Assembly (NCBI GenBank): GCA_022795855.1
Contig: JAAWHL010000019.1
Span: forward strand, 1 to 35,200
DNA from: Lawsonibacter sp.
Lineage (GTDB): Bacteria > Bacillota > Clostridia > Oscillospirales > Oscillospiraceae
DNA: 35,200 bases
Reading direction: 5' to 3'
Shown: piece by piece, positions 2,894 through 23,483 of the stretch
Layout of the letters: every line of letters starts with the position of its first letter
Position numbering within the stretch: the stretch's first letter is position 1
Program-made: the position numbers and the translations under genes
Notes under the pieces: model-generated
Seen by the model: only the letters and a program-made list of their open reading frames with translations
What the model was told of the DNA's origin: nothing
Database searches by the model: none

Positions 2894-3958
2894 ATGCGCA
2901 AGCTCATCATCAAAAAGGCCGCTGTCAAAAACAACATCAAGGTGGTCAAGGAGCGTTCGGGCAGCGCGGCGGTCTACGCGGTGCTGTCGGGAGACGGCGG
3001 CGGGGCGGGCATTGTGCCCCTGGCCCGGCTGCTGCGGGACGAGGGCATCCGCCGCTTTGCCGTGAGCGAGGTATCCGAGGCCGAGGCGCTGCGCAAGGCC
3101 GGCTTTGTGGAGGAGGAGATCCTGATGCTCCGCTCCACCACCGACCGGGAGCAGCTGGAGCGGCTGGTAGACCTGAGCGTGGTGTGCACCATCTCCTCCG
3201 TGGACACGGGGATGGCCCTGAACGCCCTGGCGGAGAACCGCTCCACGGTGGCCGAGGCCCACATCCAGGTGGACACGGGGATGGGCTTCGGCGGCTTCCT
3301 GGTCAGCGAGCCGGAAAAAATCCTGCTGGCCTACCGCTCCCTGCCCAACGTGGCCCTGTCGGGCATCTATACGCAGATCCACGCCGCCCCCAAGGGGGAC
3401 GGCACCCAGACCCAGCTTCAGCAGTTCCACCAGGTGCTGGACGCCGTCCACGCCGCCGGGTTTGAGACGGGGACCGTTCACGCCGCCGGGTCCTACGCCC
3501 TGATGCACCGGGATCTGGCCCGCCTGGACGCGGTGCGGGCCGGGTCGGTGCTGCTGGGCCGGTGCCTGCGCACCGGCGACGACGGGCTGAGCACGGTGGG
3601 CACCGGCGAGGTCGGCATCTCCGAGGTGCGCTGGCTGCCCAAGGGGCACACCGTCGGGGTGGACAAGCCCGTCGCGCTGAAAAAGCCCACCCGGGTGGCG
3701 GTGCTGCCGGTGGGCTATCAGAACGGCTTCGGCATCGAGCGGCCCAGGCAGGGCGGCTTCTGGGCCATGGCGGCCCAGTGGCGCAGGCAGCGCCGGGCGT
3801 TTGTCCTCATCGGCGGGCAGCGGGCCCGGGTCATCGGCCGCATCGGCGCCACCGAAACGGTGGTCAATGTCACCAGCCTGAAGTGCTCCGCCGGGGACGC
3901 CGCCTGCTTCGACCTGGACCCCCTCTTCGCCCGGGGCTTTTCGGTGGAGTACCGGTAG
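2894..3958 (+). CDS. Alanine-racemase fold protein lacking the PLP-binding lysine (probable pseudoenzyme)
   Basis: 354 residues laid out like alanine racemase: N-terminal barrel, VDTGMG (126-131), the VRAG arginine (Arg215), and the C-terminal LPVGYQNG with Tyr275. The segment that should be AVVKANAYGHG is AVLSGDGGGAG (29-39), so Ser32 occupies the position of the PLP Schiff-base lysine, and the tyrosine and histidine of that motif are also gone. The C-terminal CMDQ loop reads GATE (318-321). From family knowledge, loss of the lysine should abolish PLP chemistry. AGAAGGGAG precedes the ATG. It heads the plus-strand cluster with a D-Asp ligase-like gene and a racemase. A binding, scaffold or regulatory role for D-amino acids is inference; decay is unlikely because the frame is intact and well conserved elsewhere. 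Confidence 0.8.
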   Translation: MRKLIIKKAAVKNNIKVVKERSGSAAVYAVLSGDGGGAGIVPLARLLRDEGIRRFAVSEVSEAEALRKAGFVEEEILMLRSTTDREQLERLVDLSVVCTISSVDTGMALNALAENRSTVAEAHIQVDTGMGFGGFLVSEPEKILLAYRSLPNVALSGIYTQIHAAPKGDGTQTQLQQFHQVLDAVHAAGFETGTVHAAGSYALMHRDLARLDAVRAGSVLLGRCLRTGDDGLSTVGTGEVGISEVRWLPKGHTVGVDKPVALKKPTRVAVLPVGYQNGFGIERPRQGGFWAMAAQWRRQRRAFVLIGGQRARVIGRIGATETVVNVTSLKCSAGDAACFDLDPLFARGFSVEYR

Positions 3959-4364: not shown

Positions 4365-5576
4365 ATGTCCGTTTCTTTCCAGCCGCTGCTCTTTGGCGGC
4401 GACATCAACGTATACAGCGTGGCCCGGGCCTTTCACGAGGCCTACGGGGTGAAAAGCGTGGCCTTCGGCAAATACAACACCTTCCCCTGCGCCTACAGCT
4501 CCATTATCGACTACCGGGTCTGCCGGGACAACGACGTGCCGGAGGTGTTTCTCTCCAACGCAGAGGCGGTGTGCCGGGAATTTGCCGGAAAGACGGTGCT
4601 GGTCATCGGCTGCGGGGAGAACTATGTGCAGCTGGCCTCCCGCTTTCGGGACCGCCTGCCCGCCAACGCCGTGGCCCCCTATATTGACGAGGCGCTGCTC
4701 AACCGGCTGATTAACAAGGAGCATTTCTACCAGCTGTGCGACCAATACGGCCTGGACCACCCGGCCACCTTCATCTATGAAAAGTCCATGGGGCACGGCT
4801 TCACCCTGCCCTTCTGCCCCCCCTACGTGGCCAAGCCCGCCGACAGCGTGGCCTATTGGCAGCACGAGTTTGAGGGCATTAAAAAGGTCTATATCTGCCA
4901 GAGCCGGGAGGAGCTGCTCTCCGCCCTGGACGCGGTGTACGCCGCCGGCTACCCCGGCCACATGGTACTCCAGGAGTTCATCCCCGGGGACGACACCTAC
5001 ATGCGGGTGATGACCAGCTACTCCGACCGGAACGGCCGCGTGGCCCTGATGTGCCTGGGCCATGTGCTGCTGGAGGAGCACTCCCCCTACGGCATCGGCA
5101 ACTACGCCGTCATTATGACCGAGCACGACCGGGAGCTGTCCCTGAAAATCCGGGACCTGCTGGAGGCCCTGCACTACACCGGCTTCTCCAACGTGGACAT
5201 CAAGTACGACAGCCGGGACGGGAAGTACAAGCTCTTTGAAATCAACTGCCGCCAGGGCCGCAGCAACTACTACGTCACCGGCGCGGGGCACAGCATCGCC
5301 CGGCTGGTGGTGGAGGACCGGCTGGAGCAGAAGGACCTCCCCCTGGTCATCACCGAGGAACGGTCCCTGTGGCGGATGGTGCCCAAGTGCGTGGCCTTCA
5401 AATTCATCCCCAGGGCCTACCACGCCCAGATGAAGCAGCTGCTCCGGGCCGGAGCGGCCTCCCACTCCCTGGAGTACCGCCGGGACTACACCCCCGGCCG
5501 CATCTGGCGGGTATGGAAAACCCATATCGGCAATATCGTGCGCTTCAACCGGCACAACAAGGTTCCCGAAAACTAG
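4365..5576 (+). CDS. ATP-grasp carboxylate-amine ligase resembling D-aspartate ligase
   Basis: A 403-residue ATP-grasp enzyme. The N-terminal domain starts FGGDINVYSVARAF, the ATP-binding segment has YVAKPAD with Lys157, then LQEFIPGDD (202-210), and the metal site FEINCRQGRS with Glu292 and Asn294. Overall layout and the start resemble D-aspartate ligases that attach D-Asp to the side chain of the third stem residue of peptidoglycan precursors via an acyl phosphate. AAGAGG precedes the ATG. An aspartate racemase gene follows, the same pairing known from Enterococcus faecium, which supports D-Asp as substrate. Other ATP-grasp peptide ligases remain possible. The stop TAG overlaps the left end of a 163-bp repeat element. 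Confidence 0.75.
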   Translation: MSVSFQPLLFGGDINVYSVARAFHEAYGVKSVAFGKYNTFPCAYSSIIDYRVCRDNDVPEVFLSNAEAVCREFAGKTVLVIGCGENYVQLASRFRDRLPANAVAPYIDEALLNRLINKEHFYQLCDQYGLDHPATFIYEKSMGHGFTLPFCPPYVAKPADSVAYWQHEFEGIKKVYICQSREELLSALDAVYAAGYPGHMVLQEFIPGDDTYMRVMTSYSDRNGRVALMCLGHVLLEEHSPYGIGNYAVIMTEHDRELSLKIRDLLEALHYTGFSNVDIKYDSRDGKYKLFEINCRQGRSNYYVTGAGHSIARLVVEDRLEQKDLPLVITEERSLWRMVPKCVAFKFIPRAYHAQMKQLLRAGAASHSLEYRRDYTPGRIWRVWKTHIGNIVRFNRHNKVPEN

Positions 5577-5809: not shown

Positions 5810-5850
5810 AAAGTTTTCTTTTGATTCTTTTCTTTTTCAAAAGAAAAGAA
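5810..5850 (+). repeat. AT-rich hairpin repeat, left partner
   Basis: AAAGTTTTCTTTTGATTC followed by a perfect 12-bp hairpin (TTCTTTTCTTTT, TC, AAAAGAAAAGAA). The same block occurs inverted at 6597-6643, so the racemase gene is bracketed. It lies 20 bases before the racemase start. Confidence 0.7.
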
Positions 5851-5870
5851 TGAACAACAGGGAGGTGTTT

Positions 5871-6587
5871 ATGGAATACCGTCTCGGCGTTCTGGGCGGC
5901 ATGGGCCCTCAGGCGACCAACACCTTTTATCAGTTCGTGATTGACTGCACCGACGCCGGCTCGGACCAGGAGCACGTCAACGCCCTGATTTTGTCGGACA
6001 GCGGGATGCCCGACCGGACCGCCGCCATCCTGGGCAGCGAGGAGGCCCGGGAGGCGGTCTACCGCCGGCTGCTGGCCGACGCGCGCCTGCTGGAGGGGGC
6101 CGGGTGCACGGTGATTGCGGTGCCCTGCAACACCTCCCATTTCTTTCTGGACCGGGTGCAGGAGCAAATCGGCGTCCCCATTCTCCACATGATCCGGGAG
6201 ACCGCCCGGTTTCTGGCCGCCCAGGGGCTGAAGCGCCCGGGCATTCTGGCCACCGACGGCACCATCCAAACCGGCCTCTACCAGAAGGAATTCGCCGCCG
6301 CAGGCATTCAGGCGGCCGTCCCCGCCCCCCAGACCCAGGAGCAGGTCATGTCCCTGATTTACGACGACATCAAGGCCGGCCGGGACGGCGACCCCCGGAA
6401 ATTTGCCCACATCCACCGGGACCTGCTGGCCCAGGGCTGCGACTGCGGCGTTCTGGCCTGTACCGAGCTGTCCGTCTTCGCCGACCGGCACCACCTGCCC
6501 CCCTTCTACACCGACGCCATGGCCGTCCTGGCCCAGCGCTCGGTGGAGGCCTGCCGCAGGCCCCTGCGGCGCTTCTTTATCAAGTGA
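5871..6587 (+). CDS. Aspartate/glutamate racemase family protein, probable aspartate racemase
   Basis: 238 residues, cofactor-independent Cys/Cys racemase fold. It has GVLGGMGPQAT at 6-16, the first catalytic cysteine in VPCNTSH (Cys86) and the second in ACTELS (Cys197). The GGMGP start and CTEL motif are characteristic of aspartate racemases (glutamate racemases start GVFDSG). GGGAGG precedes the ATG at 5871. It follows the D-Asp ligase-like gene, so supply of D-Asp for the ligase is the natural inference. The gene sits between two AT-rich hairpin repeats in inverted orientation and downstream of a MITE-like element, which suggests a separately acquired or re-shuffled cassette. Confidence 0.88.
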   Translation: MEYRLGVLGGMGPQATNTFYQFVIDCTDAGSDQEHVNALILSDSGMPDRTAAILGSEEAREAVYRRLLADARLLEGAGCTVIAVPCNTSHFFLDRVQEQIGVPILHMIRETARFLAAQGLKRPGILATDGTIQTGLYQKEFAAAGIQAAVPAPQTQEQVMSLIYDDIKAGRDGDPRKFAHIHRDLLAQGCDCGVLACTELSVFADRHHLPPFYTDAMAVLAQRSVEACRRPLRRFFIK

Positions 6588-6643: not shown

Positions 6644-6732
6644 GGGAAAAACTGTGTTTTTCCCCTGGGGATACCGCTCCTGCCTTCCCCGGGCGGAACG
6701 CAAGGGACATGCCTGACCGGGAGGCCTGCGCA

Positions 6733-8046
6733 ATGGAAAAAATCAAGGCGGACCCTCTGGCGCTCAACGCGATTTTTCATGCGGTGCTGAAGGGGCCAAG
6801 CACCACGCCGGACGACTTCGGGCGGGTCACGCTGGCGGACACCTTTTCCATAATTTACCACACCTTCCCCGACTGGGCGGAGGTCTCCCCGGGCGACTTC
6901 TCCATTCTGGGCCGGCTGGAGAACCTGCACACCCTGCACTTTCCCAACGACCCGGGCCGGCCGCCCATCCGGGTCAGCGATTTCTCCTTTCTCGCCCGGT
7001 GCCCCAGGCTGAAGCGGCTGGACGTGGCCCGCACCAATTTCTCCGACTGCTCCATCCTGCTCCGGCTGCCGCCCCTGAGCTATGTGCGCCTGCCCCAGAG
7101 GTCCCAGCTGACCCATCTGGAGGCGCTGGACCGGCTGCCCAAAAAGACCCGGGTGAGCTTTCTCGCCCCGCCCGCGCCCTGGCCCCCCTCCGCGCCCCCG
7201 TTCCCGCTCCCCAGAGCTCCCCGGGGCAGCGAAACGGCAAAGGCCATTCTGGCGGAGATCCAGCGGCAGACCGCCTGCCCCTGCTATGAAATCGAGCTCC
7301 GGCCCGGCGCCGCCCCCGGCCTGACGGACAGCAAGTTCGGCGGCCTGCCCTACTGGGACCCGGCCCTCCCCTATCCGGAGGACCGGAACGGGGAAAAGCT
7401 GATCCTGCTGGCCCAAATCAATTTTGACCAATTCCCCCCGGAACCTCCTCTGCCCCCGGGCGGGATGCTCCAGTTCTTCGCCGGAGGGGGCGATTTGTTC
7501 GGCATGGACTGGAGCTGCCCGGACCGGCCGGACGGGTTCCGGGTGGTTTACCACCGGCGCATCGACCCCTCCGTCACCCCGGAGCGGCTGGCCGCCCTGC
7601 ATCTTCCCACCCACCGGGAACCGGCTTACTTTCCGGTGCTCCGGGAGACGGCGGTCTCCCTGCGGCGCTCCACGGCCTGGATGGGGCCGGCGGACGGCCG
7701 CTTTGACGCCGTGTTCGCCCGGGCCTTTCAGGCCGTGACGGGGCGGGCCCCGGCGCAGGGGGAAAACTTTATGGACGTCCTGGGGGATGAGGACGTCCGG
7801 TTTCTGCTCGCGGCCCTGTCCGGCGGCGGGCACCGCCTGCTGGGTTATCCCAGCTTCACCCAGGGGGACCCCCGCCCGGCGGACAGCCCCTGCCGCGCCC
7901 TGCTGTTCCAGATGGACTCCGACTTTGCGGACGGCACAGACTATGTGATGTGGGGCGACGCCGGGGCGGGACACTTCTTTATCCGCCCGGAGGACCTGGA
8001 GCGCCGGGACTTCTCCCGGGTGTACTACACCTGGGACTGCGGATGA
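6733..8046 (+). CDS. YwqG-family (DUF1963) protein with an N-terminal leucine-rich region
   Basis: 437 residues from the ATG at 6733, which has GGGAGG eight bases before it; an ATG at 6709 in the same frame has a weaker site. Residues 45-155 contain repeated L..L.L segments (FSILGRLENLHTLHF, CPRLKRLDVA) like short leucine-rich repeats. The C-terminal 260 residues carry YwqG features: KFGGLPYWDPALPYPED, LLAQINFDQ, GMLQFF and a late GYPSFTQGDPR. The function of YwqG proteins is unknown. It lies 47 bases before murE-argB in the same direction. No signal peptide or membrane segment is visible, so cytoplasmic. Confidence 0.75.
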   Translation: MEKIKADPLALNAIFHAVLKGPSTTPDDFGRVTLADTFSIIYHTFPDWAEVSPGDFSILGRLENLHTLHFPNDPGRPPIRVSDFSFLARCPRLKRLDVARTNFSDCSILLRLPPLSYVRLPQRSQLTHLEALDRLPKKTRVSFLAPPAPWPPSAPPFPLPRAPRGSETAKAILAEIQRQTACPCYEIELRPGAAPGLTDSKFGGLPYWDPALPYPEDRNGEKLILLAQINFDQFPPEPPLPPGGMLQFFAGGGDLFGMDWSCPDRPDGFRVVYHRRIDPSVTPERLAALHLPTHREPAYFPVLRETAVSLRRSTAWMGPADGRFDAVFARAFQAVTGRAPAQGENFMDVLGDEDVRFLLAALSGGGHRLLGYPSFTQGDPRPADSPCRALLFQMDSDFADGTDYVMWGDAGAGHFFIRPEDLERRDFSRVYYTWDCG

Positions 8047-8093: not shown

Positions 8094-10466
8094 ATGGACA
8101 AGACCATTCACACCCTCAGCGACTATATCGCCCTGCTGGAGGAGAAGGGCCTGCTGGCCGCTCCCCTCCCGGAGGGGCTGGACCGGTCCGCCCCGGTATC
8201 CCTGGTGTCCTACGACTCCCGGGAGGTGGTCCCCGGCACCCTGTTCCTGTGCAAGGGGGCCCATTTCAAGGCGGAATTTCTCAAAATCGCCCAAGACCGG
8301 GGGGCGGCTGCTTACGTCAGCCAGACCCCCTATCCCGGCACAGGCCTGCCCTGCGTTCTGGTGAAGGATATGCGCCTGACCCTGGCCCCCCTGGCCGCGC
8401 TCTACTACGGCCATCCCTCCGAAACCCTGAAGGTCATCGGCGTCACCGGCACCAAGGGCAAATCCTCCACCGCCTACTACCTGAAATATATTCTGGACGA
8501 GTATATGGACGAGCAGGGCCTGCCGGAAAGCGCCATTATCTCCTCCATCGACACCTACGACGGCGCGGAGCGGTTCGAGTCCCATCTGACCACCCCCGAG
8601 CCTTTAGAGCTCCAGCGCCACTTTGCCCGCGCTCTGGAGGCGGGCATCCCCTATCTGACCATGGAGGTGTCCAGCCAGGCCCTGAAGTACCACCGCACCC
8701 TGGACACCCGCTTTGCCGCCGCCTGCTTCCTGAACATCGGCACGGACCACATCTCCCCCATCGAGCACCCGGACTTTGAGGACTACTTCGCCTCCAAGCT
8801 GAAAATTTTTGCCCAGGCGGAGGTCTCCTGCGTCAACCTGGACTGCGAACACGCCGGCCGGGTGCTCCAGGCGGCCCGGGACTCCGGCTCCCGGGTTATC
8901 ACCTTCTCTCAAAAGGACCCGGAGGCCGACGTGTACGCCAGCCAGGTCCACAAGGAGGGGGGCGACATCCTCTTCCGGGTGAAGAGCCGCCGCTTCCTGC
9001 GCCGGTTCCGGCTGACCATGCCGGGACTGTTCAACGTGGAAAACGCCCTGGCCGCCATCGCCGTGTGCCAGGGGCTGAACATCCCGGAGCGGTGCATCTA
9101 TGTGGGCCTGATGAAGGCCCGGGTCCCCGGCCGCATGGAGGTCTACACCAACGCGGACGACACCGTTACCGCCATTGTGGACTACGCCCACAACCGCATG
9201 AGCTTTGAGACCCTGTTCCGCTCGGTCCGGGCGGAGTACCCCGGCCGGCGCGTCGTCACCGTCTTCGGCTGCCCCGGGAACAAGGCCCTGGACCGCCGGA
9301 GGGACCTGGGGGAGGCGTCGGGGCAGTACTCCGACCTGGTGGTGCTCACCGAGGAGGACTCCGGCGAGGAGGACACCCTGTCCATCTGCCGGGAAATCGC
9401 CGGGCATGTGGAGGCCCAGGGCTGCCAGTACTCCATCGAGCCCAACCGGGGCGAGGCCATCCGCCAGGCCGTTCTGGGCTGCCGCCGGCCCAGCGTGCTG
9501 CTGATTACCGGCAAGGGGGCCGAGACCCGCCAGAAGCGGGGGACGGAATACATCGACTGCCCCTCCGACGTGGACTATGTCCAGAGCTTTTTGCAGGAGT
9601 ACGACACGCTCCACGGCCTGGACGGCATGGAAAAGGTGCGCAGCCTGCTGTCCATCCTCCCCACCCTGAAGCGGGAGGAGGGGAAAACCGTGGTGGTGAA
9701 ATACGGCGGCTCCGCCCTGGCCCGGGGGGAGAACGTGGACACCATGCTCCAGGACGTGGCCGCCCTGAAAATGGTGGGCCTGCGGGTGGTGCTGGTCCAC
9801 GGGGGCGGCAAGCACATCTCCGCCCTGCTCCAGCGGCTGAACGTCCCCACCCGATTTGAAAACGGCTACCGGGTCACCGACGAGGCCGCCCTGGAGTGCG
9901 CCGAAATGGCGCTCTCCGCCCAGGTGAACAAGGCCGTCGTTTCCGCCCTGGGACAGCTGGAGGTGTCCGCCGCCGGCCTGTCCGGCCGGGACGGCGGGCT
10001 GCTCACCGCCAATTTCAAGGACCCGGCCCTGGGCCGGGTGGGCTCCATCACCCGGGTGAACCCCGGGGTCCTGAACACCCTGCTGGACGGCGGCTTTCTC
10101 CCGGTGGTCTCCCCCATTGCCGCCGGAGCGGACGGCCTGGGCTTCAACTGCAACGCCGACGACGCCGCCCAGGCCATCGCCGAGGCCATGGGCGCCGACC
10201 GGCTGGTGTTCCTCACCGACGTGGGCGGCGTGCTGATTGACAGCCACAACCAGAAGACCGCCGTCCCCCATATGGACGTGAAGCGGGCCGAGGAGCTCAT
10301 CTCCAGCGGCCTTATCGCCGGAGGCATGGCCCCCAAGGTCCGGAGCTGCATCCACGCCGTCCGGGCCGGAGTGGGGCAGGTGTCCATCCTGGACGGACGG
10401 GTGGAGCACGCCCTGCTGCTCCAGTTCCTGGGCCAGCGGGTCCAGGGGACCACCATCACCGGATAA
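8094..10466 (+). CDS. MurE-type Mur ligase fused to acetylglutamate kinase (ArgB)
   Basis: A 790-residue fusion. Residues 1 to about 505 are a MurE ligase, which adds the third residue to UDP-MurNAc-dipeptide. It has SYDSREVVPGTLF, P-loop GVTGTKGKSS (116-125), LTTPEPLELQ, EVSSQAL, SPIEHP, the carbamylated-lysine segment FASKLKIF (Lys235), DYAHN (363-367) and GCPGNKALDRRRDLG. The DYAHN and GNK...RR..LG forms recall streptococcal L-lysine-adding MurE, not the DAP type. Residues 512-790 are a full-length ArgB: VVKYGGSA, VHGGGKH, GLSGRDGG, NADDAAQ, TDVGGVL and AGGMAPK, consistent with an active kinase making N-acetylglutamyl phosphate for ornithine/arginine. The junction reads through with no stop; an in-frame ATG at 9627 starts the ArgB part but lacks a clear ribosome site. 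GAGG precedes the start at 8094. No other arg gene is in the window. Confidence 0.9.
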   Translation: MDKTIHTLSDYIALLEEKGLLAAPLPEGLDRSAPVSLVSYDSREVVPGTLFLCKGAHFKAEFLKIAQDRGAAAYVSQTPYPGTGLPCVLVKDMRLTLAPLAALYYGHPSETLKVIGVTGTKGKSSTAYYLKYILDEYMDEQGLPESAIISSIDTYDGAERFESHLTTPEPLELQRHFARALEAGIPYLTMEVSSQALKYHRTLDTRFAAACFLNIGTDHISPIEHPDFEDYFASKLKIFAQAEVSCVNLDCEHAGRVLQAARDSGSRVITFSQKDPEADVYASQVHKEGGDILFRVKSRRFLRRFRLTMPGLFNVENALAAIAVCQGLNIPERCIYVGLMKARVPGRMEVYTNADDTVTAIVDYAHNRMSFETLFRSVRAEYPGRRVVTVFGCPGNKALDRRRDLGEASGQYSDLVVLTEEDSGEEDTLSICREIAGHVEAQGCQYSIEPNRGEAIRQAVLGCRRPSVLLITGKGAETRQKRGTEYIDCPSDVDYVQSFLQEYDTLHGLDGMEKVRSLLSILPTLKREEGKTVVVKYGGSALARGENVDTMLQDVAALKMVGLRVVLVHGGGKHISALLQRLNVPTRFENGYRVTDEAALECAEMALSAQVNKAVVSALGQLEVSAAGLSGRDGGLLTANFKDPALGRVGSITRVNPGVLNTLLDGGFLPVVSPIAAGADGLGFNCNADDAAQAIAEAMGADRLVFLTDVGGVLIDSHNQKTAVPHMDVKRAEELISSGLIAGGMAPKVRSCIHAVRAGVGQVSILDGRVEHALLLQFLGQRVQGTTITG

Positions 10467-19463: not shown

Positions 19464-20162
19464 ATGAAACTGCCCGCAGAGCTGGACAAGGCGCCCGTCA
19501 TGCGCTGGAAGGAGGAGGAGCAGACCCTGACCCTTGTAGGGGAACCGGTCCTGGAGATGAGCCTGTCCTGGCCGGAGTGGACGGGCCAGGGCGCGCTGGC
19601 GCGGCACGCGGGGCGGTATTACGCCCGGCTGGCCCGGCGCTGGAGGGAGCACTGGGCGCGGGAGGGGTACATCCGGGCCTGCCTGGCCCTTGCGGAGCGG
19701 CGGGAGCAGTCCAGGCCCTTTGCGCCCTGGTCGGTCTCCCTGAGCGGGCGTGTGACCCTGGACGGCGGGGAGTACCTGTCCCTGGCTCTGGCGGCCCGGG
19801 AACGGCGGGAGGACGGCCGGACCCTGGAGTACCGCTGGGGGGACGTGTGGCGCAGGTCCGACGGGGCGGCGGCGGGGCTGGGGGAGCTGCTGGGCGGGGA
19901 GCGCCGCTGGCGGCGGCATCTGCGTCAGGCGCTGGAGCAGGCCGCCCAGGACGCACGGCGGGCGGGACTGTGCCTGGATCCGGAGCTGGAACGGCCCCTG
20001 CGCCGCTGGTTTTCCCCCCGGCGCGCCACCCTGACGGAGGAGGGGCTGGAGGTATACTACCCCCAGTGCACCCTGGCTCCGGCGGCGGAGGGCGCACCCG
20101 TTCTCCGGCTGTCCCTGCCCCAGAGCGCCCGCTGGGCGGGGCGGGAGGAGGTCAGCTCCTGA
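19464..20162 (+). CDS. DUF3298/RsiV-like C-terminal domain protein
   Basis: 232 residues, very rich in Arg, Trp and Leu. The end LTEEGLEVYYPQCTLAPAAEGAPVLRLSLP resembles the end of DUF3298 domains (strand, then a pattern like f.Y.lAP.a.G...i.iP). The rest matches the two-strand plus helical layout of that domain loosely (WSVSLSGRVTLDGGEYLSLALAAR). Unlike RsiV anti-sigma factors there is no N-terminal membrane anchor and no sigma gene beside it. The start ATG at 19464 lies seven bases after AAAGGAGG; an ATG two codons earlier is too close to it. The last 11 bases overlap the convergent SLH gene. Confidence 0.65.
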   Translation: MKLPAELDKAPVMRWKEEEQTLTLVGEPVLEMSLSWPEWTGQGALARHAGRYYARLARRWREHWAREGYIRACLALAERREQSRPFAPWSVSLSGRVTLDGGEYLSLALAARERREDGRTLEYRWGDVWRRSDGAAAGLGELLGGERRWRRHLRQALEQAAQDARRAGLCLDPELERPLRRWFSPRRATLTEEGLEVYYPQCTLAPAAEGAPVLRLSLPQSARWAGREEVSS

Positions 20163-21234
20163 CCCGCTCCAGAAAGTTTTTCAGCATCTGGGCCGCCTCC
20201 GCCCGGGTTGCCCGGCCCTCCGGCTCCAGACCGCTTCCCCTGCCCTGAAGGACGCGGTGCTCCGCTGCCCAGCGCAGCGCCTGCGCCTCCTCTCCGGATT
20301 GGGCCGCGTTCCCGCCGTCCCGGGGACTTCCCGCGTACCGCCACAATACCAGGCTCAGCTCCTGCCGGGTGACGGGCTCCTCCGGGCCGAAACGGCCGTC
20401 CCCCAGGCCGGAGAGGGCCCCTGTCTCCGCCGCCCAGGCGGAGCTCCGGGCATACCAGCTCCCCGTCTCCACATCGGAAAAGCCGCCCAAGCCGGCCGGC
20501 TCGGGCCTGCCCTCCAGGTTGTACAGCACCTGGGCCAGCATCCCCCGGGTCATCAGGGCGTCGGGGGAGAACACCCCGGCGGCGGTGCCGCAGAACAGCG
20601 CCCGGGCGGAGACAAAGTCCGCCGCGGCGGTGTACCAGCTCCGGGCCGGAACGTCCGCAAAGGGGACGCCGCCATCGGCCAGCTCCACCCGGGCCGAGCC
20701 CTCCAGGGGAATGACAAACACGCCCCTCTCCCAGTCCATCACGGCCCGGGGAATCACCCTGGGCGCGCCCTCCCCCTCTGTCAGCCGCGCCGCGGTGCCG
20801 GGCCCCGCGCCCTGGACAGAGAGCTCCGCCGTCAGGCCGCCGGGGACGCGGGCGAGAACCTCCTCCCCCGCCTGAACCGCCAGGGACAGCACGTCCCCCT
20901 GCCTCCGGACCAGCAGGGAGAGCGCACCCTCGGGCAGGCGGAGCAGCGCACCGTTGGGCACGGTAATCCGAACGTCCGGCAGCTCCACCACCAGCGCGGC
21001 CCCGGTCTCCCGGCCCAGGGCCCGGACAGCGGAGGCGGGGAGCGTCACCCGAACGCTGCGGATTCCCTCCGGGATTTGGGGCGCAATCACCGCCGCAGCG
21101 CTGCCGCTTTCCCCGGCCCGGGCGGCCAGCTCCCCTCCGGTTTCGGGGGACAGCACCACGCAGGCGGTCCCGTCCCGGAGGACGGCCGGCGGAGAGACCG
21201 CCGTCTGGAGGCCGCTCTGTCCCGGGAGGGGCAC
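20152..21234 (-). pseudogene. C-terminal part of a frameshifted SLH surface protein
   Basis: This frame encodes the missing end of the protein that starts at 23483. It contains about 150 residues of beta-rich sequence, then three SLH motifs (VPFADVPARSWYTAAADFV.., GFSDVETGSWYARSSAWAAETG.., and ALRWAAEHRVLQGRGSG..). SLH domains bind pyruvylated secondary wall polymers and anchor proteins to the cell wall. The frame is open upstream through the 24-bp repeats as EGNPGGGT, and the GTG at 21234 has no ribosome site, so separate translation is unlikely. Joined to the upstream frame by adding one base, the gene would encode 1110 residues. Confidence 0.75.
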
Positions 21235-23483
21235 GGCGTTTCCCCCGCTGCCGGGACGCTCCCCGCCGGTCCCGCCGCCGGGGTTCCCCTCTGTCCCGCC
21301 GCCGGGGTTCTCCTCTGTCCCGCCGCCGGGGGTCTCCTCCGTCCCGCCGCCGGGGTCTCCTCTGTCCCGCCGCCGGGGTTCCCCTCTGTCCCGCCGCCGG
21401 GGTTCCCCTCCGTCCCGCCGCCGGGGTTCCCCTCTGTCCCGCCGCCGGGGTTCTCCTCCGTCCCGCCGCCGGGGTTCCCCTCCGTCCCGCCGCCGGCGGG
21501 GCGTATCTTGACGTCCAGCAGGACCGTCCCCCGGACCGTGCGGTAATTGCCGCTGTCCGGCGTGAAGGTCCAGGCATAGGCCTCCTGCCCCGGACGGACA
21601 AAGGCCGCCGCGTCCAGGGCCAGCGTCCCGCCTACCCGGGTGTTCTCCCGGCTCAGGCGGACGGAGGCGGGGGCCCGGTCCAGAAAGAGCTCCCCGCCGT
21701 CATAGGTCACCGCGCCGATCTCCGGGTCGGCCGGACGGACGGTAAAGACTCCTACGGCGGTGCCGGTATAGTTTCCTATCCCCTGAAGGACCGCCAGGGC
21801 CTCCCCGGCGTTCACGTTCTCCTCCCAGGTCAGAATGTAGTCCTTCCCCCGGTGCAGGGCCTGCCCGTCCAGGGCGGCGGCGGGGACGGGCGTGACGGGG
21901 CTGCCGGTGTAGACCGCGTCGGACAGGCCGGTTATCTCCGCACCGGACAGGCTTCTGGGTACAACAACGGCAGTGCCGGACCAGACCGGGATGTCTTCAT
22001 AGCTCCGGCCGTCCACACTGCCGTGGAACAGGATGGTATAGGTCAGCTCCCCTGCGTCGGGGACCGGCGCCGCGCCGCCCCAGAGGACGGTATACCGCCC
22101 CTCCCCGGCACTTCCGTTCAGGCTGACCTCAATGTCCCCCAGGGTGACTATCTCCTCCAGGGATACGCCGTAGACCGGATCCTCCCGGACCGAAAAGCCG
22201 CAGCCGGGGGAGACCGGCCGGCCGCCGGAGGCAAAGCGGAGCTCCTGAACGGAAAAGCGTATGGTTCCGGTTATGCTGCCGGTATAGTTTCCCTCTGCGA
22301 GGAGGCGGAAGGAAATCTCGCCGGAGCTCCCCGCGGGCAGGGTGTTCAGCGCCGCAGTCAGCGCCTCATAATCGTAATCCGTCCCATTCAAGGAGTACAC
22401 CAGCCGGCCGGTCACATCCCCGAACTCCGGCTGGGCAAAGGCGGCCCCGCCCGGGACAAAGACGCGCTCCTCCGCAGGCCGCCGGGCGGTTACGTCCCGG
22501 GGCAGGACGGTCCCCAGCAGCCCCTCCGGCTGGCGCAGGACATAATTTCCGGCCTGCGCCCCGGCCAGGGTGAAGGGCCGGGAGAGGGCTGCCGGGATCC
22601 CCGACCCGGCGTCCGGGCCGGAGAGGGTCCCGGGGACAGACGTCTCCGCGACGCATACCTGCTCCCCGTCCAGCACGCCCTCCAGCGCACCGGCCAAAAC
22701 GGAGACCTCCACGCCGCCGTCATAGACCTTCTCCTCCACGCAGGCGGTCAGGGTCAGCACCCGGGGCTCCACGGTCAGGACGCCCAGGCACACCCGGCCC
22801 AGAAATTTGGGGTCGTCCTCCGCCGCCTGGGCAAAAATGTAGTACGTCCCGGCCTCCCGGGCGCCCTCCGTCTCCGTCAGGCCCTCCGGGTCGGTGCAGC
22901 AGAGAACGGAAAAGCGGCCTTCCACCTCCGGATTGCTCCAGGTGACGGCCGCTTGGTGAAGGGTTCCGCTGTATTCCTCGGTGCGGGGAAGGTCGGTGAC
23001 AAAATCGCTGGGAAGCAGGCCGCCAATCAGGTTGAGCGGCAGGGTGCTTTCGTACTCGTCATAATAGACAATGGCCCGGATGAATCCCCGCGCCCCGTAG
23101 GACAGGCACAGCCGCCCCTTCCGGTCCGGGTCGAACCAGACGCTGGACAGGCCCGGGTCGTCGGTCTCCCACTGCGCCTCGTCCGTCACGTCCTCCGTGC
23201 GGCCGTCGCTGTAGTAGGCCTCCGCAGTCAGGATAAGCTCCGCCGGCGGCGCATCCGGGGTCTCTGGCGTTCGAATCCACTCCGCCTCCTCCCAGAGGAT
23301 CCTGACCCCAATCAGCACAGATTCCGGAGGCCCCTCCGGCTCGGACTCCGCCCCGCCGTCCAGGGGATCCCCCGCCCCAGCGGGTTCCGGCTCCGGTTCC
23401 GGCCCGGCGGCCAGCGCGCCGGTCACGGCCAGGCTCAGGGACAGGCACAGGCACGCAAGGATAGCAAGCAGCTGTTTTTTCAT
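21087..23483 (-). CDS. N-terminal part of a secreted surface protein with bacterial Ig/YDG-like domains (frameshifted)
   Basis: 798 residues as read, of which about 710 are in the proper frame. It has a signal peptide (MKKQLLAILACLCLSLSLAV, cut near GALAA), then an acidic Pro/Glu stretch, Ig-like domains and YDG/MBG-like modules (KVYDGGVEVSV..., VYTGSPVTPV..., GNYTGTAVGVFTV), then GGGTEGNP repeats. In the fourth repeat counted from the 3' side a G is missing from a G run, so the frame changes to RRRPPAAGQ and ends at 21087 without the SLH anchor. GAAGGGAG precedes the ATG. The product as read would be secreted but not anchored. Confidence 0.75.
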   Translation of the reverse strand: MKKQLLAILACLCLSLSLAVTGALAAGPEPEPEPAGAGDPLDGGAESEPEGPPESVLIGVRILWEEAEWIRTPETPDAPPAELILTAEAYYSDGRTEDVTDEAQWETDDPGLSSVWFDPDRKGRLCLSYGARGFIRAIVYYDEYESTLPLNLIGGLLPSDFVTDLPRTEEYSGTLHQAAVTWSNPEVEGRFSVLCCTDPEGLTETEGAREAGTYYIFAQAAEDDPKFLGRVCLGVLTVEPRVLTLTACVEEKVYDGGVEVSVLAGALEGVLDGEQVCVAETSVPGTLSGPDAGSGIPAALSRPFTLAGAQAGNYVLRQPEGLLGTVLPRDVTARRPAEERVFVPGGAAFAQPEFGDVTGRLVYSLNGTDYDYEALTAALNTLPAGSSGEISFRLLAEGNYTGSITGTIRFSVQELRFASGGRPVSPGCGFSVREDPVYGVSLEEIVTLGDIEVSLNGSAGEGRYTVLWGGAAPVPDAGELTYTILFHGSVDGRSYEDIPVWSGTAVVVPRSLSGAEITGLSDAVYTGSPVTPVPAAALDGQALHRGKDYILTWEENVNAGEALAVLQGIGNYTGTAVGVFTVRPADPEIGAVTYDGGELFLDRAPASVRLSRENTRVGGTLALDAAAFVRPGQEAYAWTFTPDSGNYRTVRGTVLLDVKIRPAGGGTEGNPGGGTEENPGGGTEGNPGGGTEGNPGGGTEGNPGGGTEETPAAGRRRPPAAGQRRTPAAGQRGTPAAGPAGSVPAAGETPCPSRDRAASRRRSLRRPSSGTGPPAWCCPPKPEGSWPPGPGKAAALRR
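21269..21495 (-). repeat. 24-bp tandem repeat array encoding GGGTEGNP
   Basis: Nine units plus a partial one, units 24 bases long (GTCCCGCCGCCGGGGTTCCC.. on the plus strand), except unit 4 (21341-21363) with 23 bases. The short unit has GGGG at 21352-21355 where its neighbour of the same type has GGGGG. It encodes a flexible linker between Ig-like domains and the SLH anchor. Confidence 0.92.

Follow-up and report, generated by a model that had tools for sequence, protein, structure and literature searches.

The 35,200-nucleotide stretch of Lawsonibacter sp. DNA analysed here (contig JAAWHL010000019.1; "the window" below) carries an open reading frame (ORF) in which a MurE-type ligase, MurE2, is fused to a domain resembling N-acetylglutamate kinase (NAGK, encoded by argB), downstream of genes for an AslA-like ATP-grasp ligase (Asl-like) and an aspartate-type racemase. 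We propose that the cassette serves a peptidoglycan pathway with a D-Asp-branched basic residue, which is very probable, and that MurE2 adds ornithine supplied by way of the fused kinase; the scheme as a whole is given a probability of about 0.48. In this scheme, the racemase would convert L-Asp to D-Asp, and the kinase half, whose motifs are present, would phosphorylate N-acetylglutamate in the step committing it to ornithine, which ArgC, ArgD and ArgJ of the arginine operon would finish. MurE2 would add a basic residue, either ornithine or lysine, with the fusion pointing to ornithine, and the Asl-like enzyme, judging from homology and gene order, would attach D-Asp to the side-chain amine of the added residue, giving L-Lys-D-Asp or L-Orn-D-Asp. 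An altered C-terminal loop in the kinase, if it confers insensitivity to arginine, may let ornithine reach the wall while arginine shuts the operon enzyme. The parts are of known kinds; their combination, a MurE of a D-Asp-bridge pathway with a fused amino-acid-synthesis kinase, was not found in the papers searched.

The first-pass annotation, made from the window alone, had described one continuous, stop-free frame joining a MurE ligase to an acetylglutamate kinase, and the ORF, Pfam and NCBIfam results all confirm it. Pfam places Mur_ligase_M at amino acids (aa) 117-325, Mur_ligase_C at aa 346-475 and AA_kinase at aa 531-766, and the protein belongs both to MurE (NCBIfam TIGR01085, 296.8 bits, cut-off 257.3) and to N-acetylglutamate kinase (the equivalog-domain model TIGR00761, 233.5 bits, cut-off 151.3). 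A search of 400 genomes of the family found matches to the fusion at E <= 1e-85 in 85. The same domain order and join, which that annotation had proposed to look for in related genomes, were found in 33 match rows from ten genera, the window's own genome included, running stop-free from query positions 1-7 through 788-790. One near-full-length match is in a single-contig genome (G263), and another lies past position 577,000 of its contig (G132). Named carriers of the fusion include Pseudoflavonifractor phocaeensis, P. capillosus An386a and Flavonifractor sp. An100; versions with a collapsed kinase half occur in Flintibacter muris and Clostridiales bacterium CCNA10. The window's genome is a draft (2.5 Mb, 127 contigs, 93% complete), and a sequencing or assembly error could in principle have joined two genes; but the same join recurs in the 33 rows, in ten genera of one family, and in named isolates. 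Therefore, such an artefact has a practically negligible probability and was ruled out.

In all, 148 relatives were extracted, 116 of them distinct. Among the distinct ORFs, both K(Y/L)GG and GGMxPK are kept in 50, and the kinase half is collapsed in 21 and missing in 43; of the remaining two, one is cut by a contig end and one is fused to another ligase. It should be noted that the loci of the fusion-query set, for which the fusion served as the query, favour close relatives. The order-wide search, over 394 genomes, gave matches in 51, and the rows covering the kinase come only from the window's own family, a result that does not extend to L180, a deep fused relative from the fusion-query set. 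A MurE-acetylglutamate kinase fusion was not found in the literature searched (titles and starts of abstracts, with subscription papers mostly outside the scope).

Is the fusion the only source of either activity? This possibility was rejected, as the same genome encodes a second, separate MurE with DNPR and GKGHE, that is, of the diaminopimelic acid (DAP) type, and a stand-alone argB within the operon argH-argC-argJ-argB-argD-argF; the ArgB made from it shares 41% identity with the fused kinase. Across the genus, 17/17 loci read show DNPR in the separate MurE. On the kinase tree, 48 fused kinases cluster together on a long branch apart from operon ArgB (row S_L260, labelled stand-alone, is really a fused domain from G451). 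Therefore, both halves are presumably paralogues with a special task.

Then, which residue could MurE2 add? The ligase half resembles MurE in passing the TIGR01085 cut-off, in its middle and C-terminal Mur ligase domains, and in keeping the P-loop GTKGKS and the Glu of GKGxE. It differs in carrying an extra C-terminal kinase, in falling below the L-Lys-type equivalog (NF010628, 309.1 bits, cut-off 536), and in having EEDSG where DNPR is expected in the alignment, so that the DAP-binding Arg is absent and it falls outside the meso-DAP type. The statement of the first-pass annotation that both halves keep their catalytic motifs holds true, though it overlooked the loss of this DAP motif and the presence of separate murE and argB genes elsewhere in the genome. 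In DAP-type MurE the Arg of DNPR binds the second carboxylate of DAP, and in Staphylococcus aureus MurE the lysine side-chain amine is held by Glu-460 together with the first Asp of DNPA (PMC3829189). Because the DNPR Arg is absent, the fused MurE is not expected to use DAP. The bifunctional MurE-MurF (NF008896) is likewise a MurE-led multidomain protein, but the fusion reaches 269.9 of its 1023 bits, and its second domain is an amino-acid-synthesis kinase instead of a second Mur ligase. A comparison with a Deinococcus MurE gave no clear ornithine signature. The best match to MurE2 in the plasmid collection is the MurE of Collinsella aerofaciens (L216; 39.8% identity, EDPA motif, asnB neighbour), which may be of the ornithine type, the wall type attributed to the species; a statement of it was not found in the available parts of PMC6113628 and PMC11382707 or in the literature searches. 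No T-box or riboswitch that might name the amino acid was found near the cassette, the 16 sources giving two tRNA genes and one pemK RNA at the gathering threshold.

The neighbouring genes point to D-Asp branching. Among 61 loci from the fusion-query set with at least 4.2 kb of upstream DNA, the Asl-like gene lies upstream of MurE2 on the same strand in all 61, and the racemase gene in 58. Of 20 kinase-less loci of the family, 16 of which have a MurE2 less than 60% identical to that of the window, 18 show linkage of MurE2 to Asl and 16 to the racemase; in a further 19 loci, more distant members of the family or order, MurE2 occurs with Asl in ten, and asnB is nearby in five. A chance neighbourhood was rejected on this recurrent linkage. 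The Asl-like protein shows 34-37% identity over 98% of its length to three lactobacilli proteins, two of which are annotated as carboxylate-amine ligases. In Latilactobacillus curvatus, the gene for such a ligase comes after those for an amino-acid racemase and aspS; the window's Asl-like protein is 36% identical (149/412 positions) to this ligase, an annotated protein and not a characterised Asl, and the two racemases are 38% identical in a pairwise comparison. The window's racemase belongs by sequence to the aspartate racemases (TIGR00035, 194.4 bits, cut-off 93.1) and has PCNT and ACTE motifs, whose cysteines are presumably catalytic. The cassette is thus like racD-aslA of lactic acid bacteria, where a racemase adjoins an ATP-grasp ligase, but has its own MurE in line, in the order asl-racemase-murE. 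In lactic acid bacteria, D-Asp is attached to L-Lys3 by the ATP-grasp enzyme AslA, whose operon also contains racD; AsnH amidates the D-Asp, and residue 3 is L-Orn in L. fermentum (PMC4155827).

Table 1. Features in the window (columns: feature; position; strand; basis or remark)
MurE2-NAGK fusion protein (P0001), 790 aa	8094..10466	+	ATG 8094, TAA 10466, no internal stops
MurE-type ligase half, aa 1-504	8094..9605	+	TIGR01085 score; best PDB MurE 2wtz
TEEDSGEED (aa 419-427), replacing the DAP-binding DNPR motif	9348..9374	+	alignment
GKGAET (aa 473-478)	9510..9527	+	in the alignment, its Glu corresponds to the MurE Glu that binds the side-chain amine
Join, about aa 505-512	9606..9629	+	in frame, stop-free
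Acetylglutamate-kinase-like half including N-terminal helix region, about aa 512-790	9627..10463	+	Pfam, NCBIfam, motif alignment
Asl-like ATP-grasp ligase (P0002), 403 aa, putative D-aspartate ligase	4365..5576	+	homology, gene order
Aspartate-type amino-acid racemase	5850..6587 (start 5850 or 5871; ORF opens 5658)	+	TIGR00035; PDB 1jfl
DUF1963 gene between racemase and fusion, not constant in the cassette	6709..8046	+	neighbourhood comparison
Alanine-racemase-like pyridoxal phosphate (PLP) enzyme at the head of the region	2894..3958	+	below alr cut-off; conserved within the genus; at most a possible member of the cassette

An arrangement of the same kind is found in the genus itself. Among its 37 genomes, which are related and hence not 37 independent cases, and many of which are drafts so that presence and absence are affected, MurE2 was found in 25 and the Asl gene in 27 (both in 24, at least one in 28); in each of the four with only one of them, a contig end is no more than about 0.75 kb away from that gene. 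In eight genomes without the cassette (G002, G005, G007, G008, G024, G029, G033 and G035; L330 is one such locus), a MurE match is preceded on its own strand by a dapF match at a distance of 60-63 bp, and in G024, G029 and G033 this MurE is the only one seen. The cassette and the dapF-murE pair occur together in 0/37 genomes, and G032 has neither. Like the fusion, the pair sets a second MurE beside the enzyme making its amino acid; unlike the fusion, it is of the DAP type (DNPR read in 2/8, G007 and G008), its genes are separate, and the Asl-like gene was not found in the eight genomes. With dapF about 60 bp before MurE, a MurE carrying an enzyme that starts ornithine synthesis is therefore a like arrangement, and this precedent is the best argument that the fused ArgB would serve an ornithine-using MurE.

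The kinase half in the window has KYGG, HGGGK, GYRVT, NCNADD and GGMxPK, and HGGG, the Arg of GYR, NxNAD and GGMxPK are retained in 47/47 aligned fused domains, all picked for having KYGG; L180 also retains its motifs, with the form KLGG. We take the K of KYGG, HGGG, the R of GYR, NxNAD and GGMxPK to be the catalytic elements. The fused kinase is like ArgB in passing the TIGR00761 cut-off, in these general motifs and in having the N-helix region, but differs in being joined to MurE2, in its separate place on the tree, in having HGGGK for HGGGP (43/47) and NADD for NADT (47/47), and in its C-terminal loop, PHSLLIELLSDEGIGT in the operon ArgB of the same genome versus EHALLLQFLGQRVQGT in the fusion. 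In NAGK, the site for feedback arginine is located where the C-lobe ends, next to helix H and the N-helix (PMC3329491). The change in the C-terminal loop, near the arginine site, suggests that arginine inhibition of the fused kinase may be altered or absent.

The history of the kinase half was followed on a tree of the ligase region with 110 rows, leaving out rows more than 95% alike, below 47% identity or without the N-terminal part; both trees are quick searches with support from the Shimodaira-Hasegawa-like approximate likelihood ratio test (SH-aLRT) only. The fused clade has 82 rows (SH-aLRT 95), its 17 first-branching rows all have an intact kinase, and L180 branches deeper still. The first-pass annotation would have given up the fusion if close relatives had a stop at the join; some such relatives do exist, but on the tree they are nested in the fused clade, as lineages that lost the kinase later. 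In four kinase-less loci examined (L131-L134), no kinase-like sequence lies downstream of MurE2. The collapsed proteins are still encoded by an open frame and retain the N-helix region as well as the C-terminal strand, but KYGG, HGGG, NxNAD and GGMxPK are gone. Counting well-supported branches only, a single origin of the collapse is possible; the deletion limits of a 7-row group differ from the rest.

Selection was compared by pairwise Nei-Gojobori ratios of nonsynonymous to synonymous substitution (dN/dS) over non-independent pairs, L111, L112 and L167 being dropped since their split point is unclear. Of 120 pairs among intact genus members, 118 were usable, with a median dN/dS of 0.256 in the ligase part and 0.254 in the kinase part; the corresponding medians of two further genera are 0.152 vs. 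0.193 (g67) and 0.166 vs. 0.267 (g97). Where the kinase has collapsed, its remnants have medians of 0.652 (clade of 8 rows), 0.438 (3 rows) and 0.565 (7 rows), vs. 0.192, 0.185 and 0.256 for the ligase. Consequently, an intact kinase half appears to be functional and a collapsed one resembles a vestige under relaxing constraint; the domain looks useful but not essential. The series of intact, collapsed and deleted kinases is a natural experiment on domain fusion and decay.

Several observations weigh against the ornithine scheme. The full arginine operon is kept in the window's genome, so that the fused kinase is extra, and a stand-alone argB is present in 11/11 genus genomes with an intact fused kinase (two fusions and one argB seen only in part); therefore, ornithine synthesis as such does not require the fused kinase. 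The DAP-type MurE is also still present in the window's genome, and hence the scheme has to suppose either two stem types or use at a particular stage. Within the fused clade, 23 rows have MurE2 intact but no kinase (22 of them fall in one clade, the other being L191), and 18 (clades of 7, 8 and 3) retain MurE2 with a collapsed kinase; the kinase is thus dispensable. The Asp-to-Glu change in the specificity loop is present also in stand-alone MurE2 (L127, L128 and L212), and therefore does not track the fusion. As for the D-Asp branch, the Asl-like protein stays below every curated Pfam and NCBIfam cut-off, nine of the 19 more distant loci are without Asl beside MurE2 in the stretch fetched, and the racemase also exceeds the NCBI cysteate-racemase cut-off (196.5 vs. 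190). The literature searched yielded no cell-wall analysis of these organisms. Accordingly, the idea of the first-pass annotation that the fusion, if the third residue is ornithine, would couple the synthesis of ornithine to its use stands only in part: the lost DAP motif, the D-Asp neighbours and the dapF-murE pairs make it plausible, and ornithine itself is unproven, while in its simple form it conflicts with the retained arginine operon and with sister lineages that lost the kinase yet keep the ligase.

The same loss of the kinase, repeated on the tree, would be explained if MurE2 adds L-lysine to give an L-Lys-D-Asp wall and the kinase is a captured structural or regulatory part, free to decay, which might act in oligomerisation via the NAGK N-helix or as a nitrogen or arginine sensor. 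Most stand-alone MurE2 proteins read in sister genera have TEDDPG or TEDDPA, near the TTDDPA/TTDDPG of the MurE of Enterococcus faecalis (annotated as lysine type) and L. curvatus, and the collapsed kinases have lost catalytic motifs but not the N-helix region and the C-terminal strand. But the intact kinase is constrained about like the ligase and keeps catalytic motifs needless for a mere scaffold, and the remnants are under relaxed selection (median dN/dS 0.44-0.65), so we consider this reading rather unlikely. Mur-ligase folds serve other pathways too, and the product might be no peptidoglycan at all; the cassette could make a D-aspartyl or D-cysteyl peptide or a cofactor, with the kinase activating an N-acyl-glutamate there. 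The DAP-type MurE already in the genome and the cysteate-racemase score would fit, but MurE2 exceeds the murE cut-off, the Asl-like protein and the racemase match the lactobacillus racemase-ligase pair, and the asnB neighbours in some relatives fit D-Asp amidation (PMC4155827), all of which make such a product improbable. A kinase with a new substrate, either another N-acyl acidic amino acid or a peptidoglycan precursor, would account for the consistent HGGGK and NADD relative to operon ArgB and for the long separate branch; with the general catalytic motifs retained and the argB equivalog-domain cut-off passed, we regard it as more improbable still.

If the ornithine scheme is true, amino-acid supply is physically tied to wall synthesis, and a large group of gut commensals has an unrecorded, or second, peptidoglycan type. 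A wider form can be offered only tentatively: gut Oscillospiraceae would make L-Orn(D-Asp) peptidoglycan beside or instead of the DAP type, by means of a MurE with an arginine-insensitive kinase, the genus having either this system or dapF-murE. A review table gives no type for Oscillibacter and, within Oscillospiraceae, only meso-DAP for Faecalibacterium, and muramyltripeptides with L-lysine or L-ornithine are NOD2-agonistic (PMC11382707); therefore, the choice of residue would, if the scheme is true, change host sensing.

We also found variation in the argB genes of the genus. In ten genomes (L220, L222, L224, L226, L227, L228, L230, L231, L233 and L234), the operon argB is without KYGG, HGGG and GGMxPK, and has an open frame and the operon-type C-terminal loop beside argH and argF; perhaps it encodes an arginine-sensing pseudokinase. 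The tree gives it two origins, or possibly one when only well-supported branches are counted. In eight of these ten genomes the fused kinase is collapsed, and in the other two, the drafts G016 and G026, the fusion was not found. An intact separate argC-J-B-D cluster was read in 5/10 (L221, L223, L225, L229 and L232), and three further ones have a second argB. A strict link between the loss of the fused kinase and the gain of a new arginine cluster is not upheld by the argB counts: the collapsed-kinase genus genomes have two stand-alone argB genes in 8/14 and one in 6/14, and the four genomes of the kinase-less clade have one in three and none in G406.

Other neighbours vary as well. In L136 (G266), MurE2 is fused in frame to an Asl-type ATP-grasp domain (914 aa), and in the four loci L131-L134 of the kinase-lost clade another MurE with DNPR follows MurE2. 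The alanine-racemase-like PLP protein is present at 70-86% identity in 15/15 fetched cassette loci of the genus and in 1/20 other family loci (44%), and alr matches below the cut-off also occur in cassette-less members of the genus, e.g., G005 and G007. The DUF1963 gene is in the same place in L043 and has a short match in L046; L142 has an ORF resembling it, and no racemase was found there. Finally, on the minus strand of the window (20152-23483), an ORF with S-layer homology domains overlaps a 798-aa ORF with a YDG domain.

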